64,000 nucleotides of DNA from Kitasatospora cineracea (lineage in GTDB: Bacteria > Actinomycetota > Actinomycetes > Streptomycetales > Streptomycetaceae), in NCBI RefSeq assembly GCF_003751605.1, contig NZ_RJVJ01000001.1, forward strand, positions 4,030,001 to 4,094,000, in the 5' to 3' direction. Below are positions 6,465-33,325 of this stretch, piece after piece (position 1 is the stretch's first letter; every line of letters begins with the position of its first letter). The position numbers and the translations under genes are program-made. The notes beneath the pieces were generated by a model. It saw only the letters and a program-made list of their open reading frames with translations. It ran no database searches and was not told the origin of the DNA.

Positions 6465-7301
6465 ATGGTTGCGAACTTCCCCGAGACAGCCATCAGCACC
6501 GAACGGCTGCTGCTGCGCGCCCTTGAGGAGCAGGACGCCCCCGGACTGGCCGCCATGCTCGACGACGAACTCGTCCAGACCTGGACCGGCCACCCCCGCC
6601 CCTACCGACCGGCCGACGCGCACGAGCTGATCACCCGTCGGGCGCCCGAGCGGCGGGCCCGGGGGCGCGGAATCGTTTTCGCCGTCACCGAGCACCTCAC
6701 CCAGCGCCTCGTCGGCCTGCTCGAACTCGACCGCACCGACTGGCACCTGCGCGCCACCGAGGTCCGCTTCGTCACCGCCCCCTGGGCCCGCGGCGAGGGC
6801 TACGCGCCCGAAGCCGTCCTCGGCACCGCCCAGTGGCTGTTCGAGGACCGCGACTTCCAGCGCCTCGAACTGCGCACCGCCGCCGGCAACACCGCCGCCC
6901 AGCAGGTCGCCCAGAAGACCGGCGCGATCAGCGAGGGCGTGCTGCGCAACGCCGGCATAGTCCGCGGCGGCGAATGGGGCCCCGGGCCCGAGGAGCACAC
7001 CGACCTGATCGTGTGGAGCCTGCTCCCGAGGACCTCGACCCGCCCGAACCCGCCCACCCCGACGACCGCTACCACGCGCTGCGCCACTGAAACCCGTCCC
7101 CCGCGGGGCTCGCACGCCTGTACGCCCGTTGTTCACGCCCCGGCGCGCGCCTCGGCTCCGCACCACCCCGGCCAGGCGGTAGCCTCTGCCCCAGGGGCGC
7201 GCCCGCGGCGCACCCCGCCAGGGGTGGAACACGGCATGAGGGAGAGCGGCCGCAGATGGCTGACCGGATCACGGTCATCGGGTGGGACGGCACCCCACTG
7301 A
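6465..7301 (+). CDS. GNAT acetyltransferase (RimJ/RimL type), apparently frameshifted near its 3' end
   Basis: The first ~187 residues form a complete GNAT domain of the RimJ/RimL type (TERLLLRALEEQDAP..., RFVTAPWARGEGYAPEA, ...GNTAAQQVAQKTGA). After DLIVWSLLP (about base 7028) the frame becomes low-complexity Pro/Arg/Thr sequence and runs to 7301, 46 nt into the next gene. Shifting to the -1 frame at CTCCCGAGG restores ...LLPEDLDPPEPAHPDD and a stop at 7090, which looks like a natural family ending. One C is therefore probably missing from the CCC run near 7027-7029. The coordinates give the literal open frame; the likely original end is 7090. ATG 6465 follows a GAGGAGAG ribosome site. Confidence 0.75.
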   Translation: MVANFPETAISTERLLLRALEEQDAPGLAAMLDDELVQTWTGHPRPYRPADAHELITRRAPERRARGRGIVFAVTEHLTQRLVGLLELDRTDWHLRATEVRFVTAPWARGEGYAPEAVLGTAQWLFEDRDFQRLELRTAAGNTAAQQVAQKTGAISEGVLRNAGIVRGGEWGPGPEEHTDLIVWSLLPRTSTRPNPPTPTTATTRCATETRPPRGSHACTPVVHAPARASAPHHPGQAVASAPGARPRRTPPGVEHGMRESGRRWLTGSRSSGGTAPH

Positions 7302-23236: not shown

Positions 23237-23311
<75 letters not shown>

Positions 23312-23346
23312 GGGTGCGCCAGGAATCCCCTGCTGGGAAGCCTGAG

Positions 23347-23418
<72 letters not shown>

Positions 23419-23452
23419 GGGTCGATCCGAAGGACCGGGATCCGAAGACCAG

Positions 23453-23524
<72 letters not shown>

Positions 23525-23563
23525 GGGGAGGGCCTCCGGTCGGAACCGGACGGCACCTCTTTG

Positions 23564-23634
23564 AGGTGGAGACGGGATTTGAACCCGTGTACACGGCTTT
23601 GCAGGCCGTTGCCTCGCCTCTCGGCCACTCCACC
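23564..23634 (-). tRNA. tRNA-Cys (GCA)
   Basis: A 71-nt cloverleaf with acceptor GGTGGAG/CTCCACC, anticodon GCA in CTGCAAA, and discriminator U as expected for tRNA-Cys. The CCA is not encoded. Confidence 0.96.
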
Positions 23635-23677
23635 AGGCAACTCACTTCTGAAGAACGATCTTACCCGTTCTCCATCG

Positions 23678-23750
23678 AGCGGACGACGAGATTCGAACTC
23701 GCGACCCTCACCTTGGCAAGGTGATGCTCTACCAACTGAGCCACGTCCGC
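23678..23750 (-). tRNA. tRNA-Gly (GCC)
   Basis: A 73-nt cloverleaf with acceptor GCGGACG/CGTCCGC, anticodon GCC in TTGCCAA, and discriminator U. First tRNA of the Gly-Cys-Val-Val-Val operon. Confidence 0.96.
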
Positions 23751-29190: not shown

Positions 29191-29203
29191 TTCCCTGCAC
29201 CCG

Positions 29204-29275
29204 GGCGATTAGCTCAGCGGGAGAGCACTTCGTTCACACCGAAGGGGTCACTGGTTCGATCCCAGTATCGCCCAC
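29204..29275 (+). tRNA. tRNA-Val (CAC), copy 1
   Basis: A 72-nt cloverleaf with acceptor GGGCGAT/ATCGCCC, anticodon loop TTCACAC (CAC), discriminator A, CCA not encoded. Confidence 0.97.
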
Positions 29276-29286
29276 CGGAATGCACA

Positions 29287-29334
29287 GGCGTAGGGCTCCG
29301 ACTTGTTTATCAGGTCGGGGCCCTACGCCTTTTC
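29287..29334 (+). terminator. Terminator of tRNA-Val copy 1
   Basis: A 17-bp stem with one G-U pair (29287-29303 with 29315-29331), then TTTT: one of the few classical rho-independent signals in the window. Confidence 0.9.
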
Positions 29335-29414
29335 CGCGTACCGGGCGCCGAGTTCTGACGGCCATTCAACGTGCCGTCCCGGAACGGGAACTGGGGGACC
29401 GTCCGGGGAACGGA

Positions 29415-29445
29415 TTGTGAACCGGGGCCCAAGTGGTGCTACAGT
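29415..29445 (+). promoter_or_regulatory. Promoter of the second tRNA-Val(CAC) gene
   Basis: TTGTGA (29415-29420) and TACAGT (29440-29445), 19-bp spacer, 14 nt before the tRNA. Confidence 0.5.
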
Positions 29446-29459
29446 TCTTCTCGTTGCCC

Positions 29460-29531
29460 GGGCGATTAGCTCAGCGGGAGAGCACTTCGTTCACACCGAA
29501 GGGGTCACTGGTTCGATCCCAGTATCGCCCA
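29460..29531 (+). tRNA. tRNA-Val (CAC), copy 2
   Basis: Identical in all 72 positions to copy 1, 184 nt downstream, but with its own promoter and terminator. Confidence 0.97.
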
Positions 29532-30641: not shown

Positions 30642-32620
30642 GTGACGGACGTCCGGATCATCATCAACCGCGAACCCGATCGGGAAGAGCGCGTGGTGAC
30701 CACGGGCACTACGGCCGCCGAGCTCTTCGCCGACGACCGCGCCGTGATCGCCGCCCGGGTCGGCGGCCAGCTCAAGGACCTCGCCTACGCCGTCCGGGAC
30801 GGCGACGAGGTCGAACCCGTCGTGATCTCCAGCCCCGACGGCCTCGACATCCTGCGGCACTCCACCGCCCACGTGATGGCCCAGGCCGTCCAGCAGGTCT
30901 TCCCCGAGGCCAAGCTCGGCATCGGCCCGCCCGTCCGGGACGGCTTCTACTACGACTTCGACGTCGAGCGGCCGTTCCAGCCGGACGACCTCAAGACCAT
31001 CGAGAAGAAGATGCAGGAGATCATCAAGCGGGGGCAGAAGTTCTCCCGCCGCGTGGTCACCGACGAGGCCGCCCGCGAGGAGCTCGCCAAGGAGCCCTAC
31101 AAGCTCGAACTGATCGGCCTCAAGGGCTCGGCCGCCACGGCCGGCGAGGGCGCCGACGTCGAGGTCGGCGCCGGCGAGCTCACCATCTACGACAACCTCG
31201 ACCCGAAGACCGGCGAGCTCTGCTGGGGCGACCTCTGCCGCGGCCCGCACCTGCCCAGCACCCGGCACATCCCGGCGTTCAAGCTGATGCGCTCGGCCGC
31301 CGCCTACTGGCGCGGCAGCGAGAAGAACCCCATGCTGCAGCGCCTCTACGGCACCGCGTGGCCCACCAAGGACGAGCTCAAGGCCCACCTCGACTTCCTC
31401 GAGGAGGCCGCCAAGCGCGACCACCGCAAGCTCGGCAACGAACTCGACCTGTTCTCGATCCCCGAGCAGATCGGCTCCGGCCTCGCCGTCTTCCACCCCA
31501 AGGGCGGCATCATCCGCCGCACCATGGAGGACTACTCGCGCAAGCGGCACGAGGAGGAGGGCTACGAGTTCGTCTACACCCCGCACGCCACCAAGGGAAG
31601 CTGTTCGAGACCAGCGGCCACCTCGACTGGTACGCCGACGGCATGTACCCCCCCATGCAGCTGGACGAGGGCGTCGACTACTACCTCAAGCCGATGAACT
31701 GCCCGATGCACAACCTGATCTTCGACGCGCGCGGCCGCTCCTACCGCGAACTGCCGCTGCGCCTCTTCGAGTTCGGGACGGTCTACCGCTACGAGAAGTC
31801 CGGCGTCGTGCACGGCCTGACCCGCGCCCGCGGCTTCACCCAGGACGACGCGCACATCTACTGCACCCGCGAGCAGATGGCCGACGAGCTGGACCGCACG
31901 CTGACCTTCGTGCTGGACCTGCTGCGCGACTACGGCCTGAACGACTTCTACCTGGAGCTGTCCACCAAGGACCCGGAGAAGTTCGTCGGCAGCGACGAGG
32001 ACTGGGAGGAGGCCACCGCCGTCCTCGCCAGCGTGGCCGAGAAGCAGGGCCTGCCGCTGGTGCCGGACCCGGGCGGCGCGGCCTTCTACGGCCCGAAGAT
32101 CTCGGTGCAGGCGCGGGACGCGATCGGCCGGACCTGGCAGATGTCGACCGTGCAGCTGGACTTCAACCTGCCGAACCGCTTCGACCTGGAGTACACCGCG
32201 GCGGACGGCTCGCGGCAGCGGCCGGTCATGATCCACCGGGCGCTGTTCGGCTCGATCGAGCGCTTCTTCGCGGTGCTGCTGGAGCACTACGCGGGCGCCA
32301 TGCCGCCGTGGCTGGCCCCGGTCACCGTCACCGGCATCCCGATCACCGACGAGCACGTGCCGTACCTGCTGGACGTGGCGGCCGAGCTGAAGAAGCACGG
32401 GATCCGGGTCGAGGTCGACACCTCGGACGACCGGATGCAGAAGAAGATCAGGAACGCGCAGCGCAGCAAGGTGCCGTTCATGCTGATCGCGGGCAACGAT
32501 GACGTCGAGGCGGGTGCGGTGTCGTTCCGCTACCGCAGCGGCGAGCAGAAGAACGGCGTGCCCCGTGACCAGGCGATCGCCGAGATCGTTGAAGCGGTAC
32601 GGAGTCGGGTACAGGTCTGA
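30642..32620 (+). pseudogene. thrS: Threonyl-tRNA synthetase, complete but split by a one-base frameshift at ~31598
   Basis: Charges tRNA-Thr; normally essential. From GTG 30642 the frame gives TGS, editing ([30 protein letters not shown]) and the start of the catalytic domain through YTPHATKG, then goes out of frame and stops at 31697. The remainder continues in the -1 frame as [20 protein letters not shown], through class II motifs 2 and 3 and the anticodon-binding domain, to the stop at 32620. One base is missing after AAGGG (31595-31597); adding it restores a ~660-residue enzyme. An essential gene with everything else intact argues for a sequencing indel. Confidence 0.93.
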
Positions 32621-32621
32621 C

Positions 32622-32711
32622 GTATTCCCCGCGAAGGCGGGGGTGGTCCGAAGATTCGGAAGGCGCACAAGACCAAGGTGCCGTAGGACCCGCGGCCGCG
32701 GGTGAGTGCGG
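32622..32711 (+). CRISPR. Solitary type I-E CRISPR-like repeat with a degenerate second copy 61 nt later
   Basis: The 29-nt sequence at 32622-32650 begins GTATTCCCCGCG, has a palindromic CCCCGC...GCGGGG core, and ends TGGTCCG. Compared from memory with the E. coli type I-E repeat it matches 20 of 29 positions, including TTCCCCGCG, GCGGGG and the terminal CCG. A second copy at 32683-32711 matches the first at 18 of 29 positions, exactly 61 nt (29 + a 32-nt spacer) downstream, the type I-E period. It starts 2 nt after the thrS stop and its second copy runs into a terminator hairpin. No cas genes are in the window. A chance palindrome is possible. Confidence 0.5.
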
Positions 32712-32742
32712 GGCGGCCTCCTTCGGGAGGGCGCCCCGCACT
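32705..32742 (+). terminator. Hairpin terminator after thrS
   Basis: Stem AGTGCGGGGCG (32705-32715) with its complement at 32732-32742, extended inside by CCTCC-TTCG-GGAGG. Overlaps the degenerate repeat copy. Confidence 0.75.
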
Positions 32743-32779: not shown

Positions 32780-33325
32780 ATGACGAGTGAGCCGGAACTG
32801 CAGCGGGGCGTGGGGGAGCCGGACGGCTTCCGTCGCCTGTGGACACCCCACCGGATGGCGTACATCCAGGGCGAGAACAAGCCCACCGGGCCGGCTCCCG
32901 ACGACGGTTGTCCGTTCTGCTCGATCCCGAAGCTGAGCGACGAGGACGGGCTGATCGTGCAGCGCGGCGAGTCGGTGTTCGCGGTGCTGAACCTCTACCC
33001 GTACAACGGCGGGCACTTGATGGTGGTGCCGTACCGGCACGTCGCGGACTACACCGAGCTGGACGGGCCGGAGACGGCCGAGCTGGGGGAGTTCACCAAG
33101 AAGGCGATGACGGCGCTGCGGGCGGCGTCGGGGGCGCACGGGTTCAACATCGGGATGAACCAGGGGGCGGCCGCGGGGGCCGGGATCGCCGCGCACCTGC
33201 ACCAGCACGTGGTGCCGCGCTGGGGCGGGGACACGAACTTCATGCCGGTGGTGGGGCAGACCAAGGTGCTGCCGCAGCTGCTGGCGGACACCCGGAAGAT
33301 GCTGTCCGAGGTGTGGCCGGTCTGA
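32780..33325 (+). CDS. HIT-family hydrolase/phosphorylase (Rv2613c-like)
   Basis: A 181-residue histidine-triad protein. The nucleotide-binding triad is HLHQHVVPRW (His139, His141, His143), with a zinc-type CPFC (44-47) and the N-terminal substrate segment NLYPYNGGHLMVVPYRH. Its mycobacterial counterpart, in the same thrS-HIT-pgsA context, is a diadenosine tetraphosphate (Ap4A) phosphorylase, so that role is likely by family and synteny. ATG 32780 is preferred to the upstream open frame because of the -10 box just before it. Confidence 0.9.
   Translation: MTSEPELQRGVGEPDGFRRLWTPHRMAYIQGENKPTGPAPDDGCPFCSIPKLSDEDGLIVQRGESVFAVLNLYPYNGGHLMVVPYRHVADYTELDGPETAELGEFTKKAMTALRAASGAHGFNIGMNQGAAAGAGIAAHLHQHVVPRWGGDTNFMPVVGQTKVLPQLLADTRKMLSEVWPV

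Follow-up and report, generated by a model that had tools for sequence, protein, structure and literature searches.

Solitary type I-E CRISPR-like units beside thrS and other streptomycete genes as candidate self-immune, single-guide loci

The 64,000-nt stretch of Kitasatospora cineracea DNA analyzed here (the window) contains, directly behind the threonyl-tRNA synthetase gene thrS, a solitary type I-E CRISPR-like unit. Judged by its sequence, this unit belongs to a broader class of self-immune single-guide loci, of which it is a probably silent copy in partial decay. Four features that are legible in the DNA itself, namely the anatomy of the units, the origin of their guides, the periodicity of guide mismatches and the escape of the carriers' own targets, make it very probable that such a class exists, with guides fitted to relatives and own targets that have escaped. 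With moderate confidence, we further propose that the unit represents a self-immune CRISPR locus consisting of a guide only, which would act as a cis-linked poison-antidote or homing-drive-like pair.

The unit is placed between the thrS stop codon (TGA, 32618-32620), with repeat 1 beginning one base further on, and the thrS terminator. Its parts and neighbors are the following.

30642-32620, + strand: thrS (threonyl-tRNA synthetase), host and target gene, with one apparent frameshift
32441-32443, + strand: AAG PAM of the own protospacer, directly 5' of it
32444-32475, + strand: own protospacer in thrS, AAGATCAGGAACGCGCAGCGCAGCAAGGTGCC, 24/32 identical to the spacer
32622-32650, + strand: type I-E-like CRISPR repeat 1, GTATTCCCCGCGAAGGCGGGGGTGGTCCG, 29 nt, with hairpin CCCCGC/GCGGGG
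32651-32682, + strand: spacer (guide), AAGATTCGGAAGGCGCACAAGACCAAGGTGCC, 32 nt, from the thrS coding segment KIRNAQ(K)xKVP
32683-32711, + strand: degenerate repeat 2, 18/29 identical to repeat 1, at exactly +61
32705-32741 (approximate), + strand: thrS terminator hairpin, also in unit-less relatives
32780-33325, + strand: HIT-domain gene, downstream of thrS

The unit has the palindromic repeat of 28-29 nt, the spacer of ~32 nt and the 61-nt period of type I-E systems. A sequence-only reading of the window had described the 29-nt repeat, the 32-nt spacer and the degenerate copy (18/29) at 61 nt, and our coordinates and identities agree with it; the second copy also touches the terminator hairpin, as that reading had suspected. 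Its view that a lone type I-E unit follows a housekeeping gene was likewise borne out. The core repeat pattern CCCCGCNNNNGCGGGGGTGRTCCG was found in 74/395 family genomes, where it lies largely within canonical arrays. The reversed control pattern of CCCCGCNNNNGCGGGGGTGRTCCG was found in none of the genomes among the matches listed, and a similarity to repeat 1 of at least 18/29 occurs at only 22/63,972 window positions. By its pattern, repeat 1 is a genuine I-E-type repeat that recurs in the canonical arrays of relatives. In place of the several spacers against mobile elements that mark a CRISPR array serving adaptive immunity, the unit has one spacer, which matches thrS. A phage or plasmid source for this spacer, which the earlier reading had wanted searched, was dropped for lack of a meaningful match, since no phage or plasmid matches beyond chance were found.

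Within the window genome, repeat 1 is the sole match to the core pattern, and no match to Cas7e or Cas5e was found. The window copy is probably silent, because its genome is without Cas7e or Cas5e and its second repeat has decayed; repeat 2 is intact at +61 in several relatives with a thrS unit (e.g. G018, G013 and G137), and G252 likewise carries an intact unit. The proposed search for arrays of the same repeat and for cas genes turned up no further match to the core pattern and no Cas7e or Cas5e in this genome; the repeat does form canonical arrays in relatives. The idea that the unit is a relic fits its probable inertness here, and the conserved contact positions of the spacer speak against it. 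A role as the present-day thrS terminator is not supported, as the terminator hairpin is a separate element that relatives without the unit share, and comparison of the thrS-HIT region among relatives did not reduce the repeats to a plain conserved terminator.

Several other features of the window deserve mention. Near 31593-31597, thrS is read in two frames (ACCAAGGGAAGCTG in the window vs ACCAAGGGGAAGCTG in relatives); the G run there is one base shorter in the window, which represents either a homopolymer sequencing error or a true frameshift. The window genome has a second, weaker thrS-like match. Five consecutive tRNA genes, three of them with equal scores, lie at 23240-23750, and two more, scoring equally with each other, lie upstream of thrS at 29203-29531.

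The spacer matches the thrS codons KIRNAQ..KVP of its own genome at 24/32 positions, immediately after AAG, the motif that serves as PAM in Streptomyces avermitilis, whose type I-E system is active (PMC4762764), and the thrS genes of relatives at up to 28/32. A match of 24/32 to thrS was reached by 7/3,000 other 32-mers of the window and by 0/2,000 shuffles. By these comparisons the window spacer is derived from the adjoining thrS. This origin, and the recurrence of such units at other housekeeping genes with immune own targets, had been missed by the sequence-only reading.

Among 395 family genomes and loci from other searches, ~20 related genomes, including Streptomyces sp. CB02056 and S. 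hyaluromycini as carriers of the same thrS unit, have a unit 1-5 nt past the thrS stop codon. The thrS-flanking spacers target at least five thrS sites or the neighboring HIT gene. The KIRNAQ spacer, in diverged form, is present in seven genomes besides that of the window and is recognizable across several genera; in two of these units (L028 and L224) three bases are missing, which gives a 58-nt spacing. Other units target the thrS sites NGVPRDE (NGVPRDEAIAE; G001 and G004), DAIGRT (G275 and G227) and DPEKFVG (G008), the antisense strand at TIQLDF (G201) and QMST (G091), or the HIT gene (G309 and, with a shorter match, G114). As differing thrS and HIT targets are found at one spot, the arrangement has originated there repeatedly, and, with the other housekeeping genes described below, many times overall. 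Full or shortened spacers with no target assigned are present in four further units behind thrS (L228, L278, L188 and L204). Lone repeat-like hairpins with no spacer follow thrS at seven loci (L226, L277, L279, L276, L309, L295 and L310), and these are likely the remains of lost units.

To extend the survey beyond thrS, 64 solitary repeats, each with ~7-kb flanks, were searched for an adjoining target; target names were read from sequence, with Pfam run for thrS and HIT only. Solitary units match a gene that adjoins them at cobN, at two sites (G279 and G145), hisS (G169), coaE and glnD (both in G180), DAHP synthase (G164), recN (G390) and, in G001, a gene for a 32-aa basic ribosomal-type protein. 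Most of the 64, well over half, showed no clear local target.

About 12 of these target-less repeats belong together as a conserved family that precedes a clpC-like gene, a neighbor that was seen in L158. There, at 7085-7180, a highly conserved I-E-repeat-like hairpin is followed by the fixed sequence GACGGGTGTCGGCAGTTGGAATGAGCTGTCCC just upstream of the gene, and hairpins of this type are also found in L150, L156, L159, L163-L165, L172, L174, L175, L180, L184 and L203. The hairpin has no meaningful Rfam match, and its 'spacer' matches nothing nearby, for which reason we left the family out of the self-guide class; it may represent a unit that has been domesticated or simply a regulatory element.

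When type I-E Cascade binds, each sixth base of the target is flipped out, so that mismatches at those positions do not count. To ask how the guides depart from their targets, we used 94 unit-less thrS genes, mostly obtained by protein search, as the reference for the thrS spacers, took one spacer per thrS site, and scored a position as departing if it was matched by <10% of relatives. The window spacer is mismatched to >90% of the 94 relatives at positions 6, 12 and 18 only, and across guides the recurrent mismatch positions are 6, 12, 18, 24 and 30. Of the sixth positions in the thrS spacers, 16/30 departed in this sense, against 4/30 of the other wobble positions and 3/132 of the rest (Fisher 0.0011 for sixth positions vs other wobble; 2.4e-10 vs all others). 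In the KIRNAQ units that lack three bases, the mismatches fall instead at 3, 9 and 15. Units beside genes other than thrS, compared with their own targets, gave a similar pattern, with mismatches at 32/45 sixth, 14/45 other wobble and 21/198 remaining positions (sixth vs other wobble, p 1.4e-4). Since sixth positions exceed other wobble positions, codon wobble alone is insufficient to account for the pattern, and since contact positions are matched where sixth positions have drifted, the contact positions look selected. Together, the tolerance of the sixth base and the PAM beside the protospacer point to spacers that are read by Cascade. The guides are all in reading-frame phase, but we gave this no independent weight, since a PAM that is itself an in-frame Lys AAG codon tends to impose that phase.

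This periodicity bears on a simpler account of adjacency and escape, in which Cas1-Cas2 inserted a spacer of self origin where a terminator hairpin beside the source gene resembled a repeat, the cells survived through mutation of the target, and the unit is functionless now. Such a scar of autoimmunity would account for the adjacency, the self-origin of the spacer, the escaped own target, the decay of repeats and the Cas-less genomes, and it is in keeping with the finding that some genomes have just a single decayed repeat behind thrS and with the irregular integration by the active S. avermitilis system (PMC4762764). However, a functionless spacer should drift evenly, and here the contact positions stay matched and mainly the sixth positions drift; the KIRNAQ spacer has, moreover, been kept recognizably across several genera. 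We regard this account as possible and rather unlikely.

To assess whether carriers are protected from their own guides, we called a target 'competent' if it had a PAM starting with AA, no seed mismatch and at most five contact mismatches, a rule that was set after seeing the data. Under this post hoc rule the own targets were non-competent in 17/18 tested units, whereas relatives were competent at frequencies of 0.23-0.98, with usually about half or more of the unit-less relatives keeping a good target; the naive product over 11 sites, comparing own and relatives' competence, was 6e-7. The exception, L099, has an own target that is still competent under the rule. In a further comparison, the spacers of 14/14 thrS units tested matched the own gene less well than, on average, the genes of its 15 nearest unit-less relatives, and the protospacers of carriers are hyper-divergent (KIRNAQ, p 0.0008; NGVPRDE, p 0.004).

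At several sites the PAM itself differs. The own PAM is CGG at hisS (AAG in 10/10 relatives), GCC at DAHP synthase (AAC in 8/9 relatives), TCG at coaE (AAA in 2/2 relatives) and CGC and CGG at the thrS site DAIGRT (AAG in 43/94 relatives). At the antisense TIQLDF site of thrS the own target has AAC and two seed mismatches (AAG in 75/94 relatives). At the cobN site of G279 the own target has the PAM CGG and three contact mismatches, in comparison to AAG in 20/~29 relatives, two of which have zero contact mismatches, and at that of G145 it has AAT and 7 contact mismatches, including amino-acid changes, where relatives mostly have AAG and 1. Relatives have AAC or AAA rather than AAG at the HIT, DAHP synthase and coaE sites, and a looser PAM would therefore be needed there. 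Where the PAM is intact, the own target differs in another way, either by mismatches in the seed or by several altered codons close together. The window unit is of this kind, with the PAM intact, a seed mismatch at position 7, a change from AAG to CGC at positions 19-21 and a further change at 23, so that its predicted escape depends on the changes at seed position 7 and within 19-23. Taken alone, the window unit gives a modest contrast between own and nearest relatives' targets (p 0.19), and the claim of escape therefore rests on the whole set of units.

Loss of the own target also separates these units from the CreTA/CreA mini-CRISPRs, which likewise carry a single spacer between degenerate repeats at an ectopic site and make use of a resident Cascade. 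CreA represses the adjoining toxin promoter, whereas a thrS-type guide points into essential coding sequence and its own copy has escaped; by the post hoc rule, applied to sequence only, pairing of the guide with the adjoining own target is not predicted in 17/18 units, which had lost PAM, seed or contacts. An analogous autoregulation, in which Cascade would be guided to the adjoining gene with mismatches blocking cleavage by Cas3, agrees with the partial complementarity, the location in the 3' UTR and the existence of ectopic-repeat regulators (PMC9458426, PMC8501985). We disfavored it and judge it very improbable, because the own PAM or seed, most needed for binding, is often lost, there is no association with resident Cas7e, and the targets lie within coding regions on either strand.

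The association with Cas genes was assessed directly. Cas7e was found in ~9/20 carriers vs 177/395 genomes overall, and being no commoner in carriers it indicates no dependence on a resident system, as would be expected of a passenger that uses effectors wherever it meets them. The window genome gave no match to Cas7e or Cas5e, and some other carriers have Cas7e/Cas5e together with Cas3e, which was encoded in 3/3 Cas-positive carriers examined; an unescaped target would therefore be dangerous to these cells. Streptomyces sp. CB02056 and S. hyaluromycini belong to the Cas-positive carriers. Separately, a type I-E-like Cascade operon with no Cas3 identified beside it was seen amid cell-wall type genes in L063 (G196:C1:2306001-2326000).

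Guides that tolerate wobble and are directed at a conserved gene found in many hosts are also known from type I-F3 transposons (PMC11406308), which raised the question of whether the unit is the homing guide of a CRISPR-associated (Tn7-like) transposon or a scar of one. Unlike those elements, thrS-type units have no transposase or element, their target lies inside the gene, and their own target is altered, for which a transposon guide gives no reason. By inspection, Tn7-like transposase genes and ends are absent at the thrS locus, where thrS and the unit are followed without interruption by the terminator and the HIT gene. The protospacers are scattered through thrS at differing depths and on both strands, and insertion ~50 nt downstream would often fall inside the gene; this geometry speaks against transposon homing, to which we give virtually no credence.

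Streptomycetes swap large chromosomal stretches by mating, and the reading we prefer, a linked guide and immune allele, can be set out for that situation. The unit would be co-transcribed with the adjoining gene, Cas6e would process the transcript, and the guide would enter any type I-E Cascade-Cas3 present in the cell. Where the linked guide and immune allele come to share a cytoplasm with an unprotected allele, as they might in a Streptomyces mating zygote, that unprotected copy would be cleaved, followed by its loss or by repair with the immune haplotype as template; cutting with such repair would amount to homing, and cutting alone to a barrier. The guide would thus be the poison and the altered neighbor the antidote, and their tight linkage would let the pair persist or spread. 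Linkage of guide and allele and the predicted resistance expected of a drive are both present in the sequence; transcription, processing, cleavage and a transmission advantage are steps that we infer. Against the proposal, no tract of raised identity that would mark a recent transfer of the haplotype was seen between distant carriers. An active poison-antidote or drive function is, in our estimate, somewhat favored, and slightly better than even is also how we rate the broader proposal that streptomycetes carry natural RNA-guided poison-antidote (drive-like) loci, small guide cassettes next to essential genes and cis-linked to an escaped allele, that direct any resident type I-E effector against the unprotected alleles of relatives.

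The same periodicity and escape data would support a barrier or kin-discrimination function, in which the guide destroys incoming chromosomal DNA of relatives and so shields the resident allele but does not itself spread, and the gain of chromosomal spacers between mating archaeal species is known in Haloferax. By itself, however, a barrier needs neither tight linkage of guide and allele nor presence in Cas-less genomes, and we consider it improbable.

Among known systems, the preferred poison-antidote arrangement most resembles several in part. Synthetic cleave-and-rescue and homing CRISPR drives likewise link a guide against an essential gene to a cleavage-resistant copy, but the units described here are natural, bacterial and type I-E, with no effector on the locus and a spread that is putative. 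Chromosomal self-targeting spacers in arrays share the housekeeping-gene spacer and the escape in the own genome, whereas these units lie outside arrays and beside the target gene, with a guide that appears selected at contact positions. Virus-borne mini-CRISPR arrays of interviral conflict (PMC6858448) are likewise tiny, without cas genes and used against relatives, and differ in that our units sit in bacterial chromosomes beside host housekeeping genes. Paper searches, which covered few preprints and few subscription journals, found no prior description of such loci.

If this interpretation is true, ordinary chromosomal loci have made CRISPR interference a weapon or drive between related bacteria, one that needs just ~90 bp of DNA and the effector of the host, and engineered cleave-and-rescue systems would then have an equivalent in nature. 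It would also explain orphan CRISPR units in Cas-less genomes, and the influence of CRISPR on gene exchange between actinomycetes could be tested directly.
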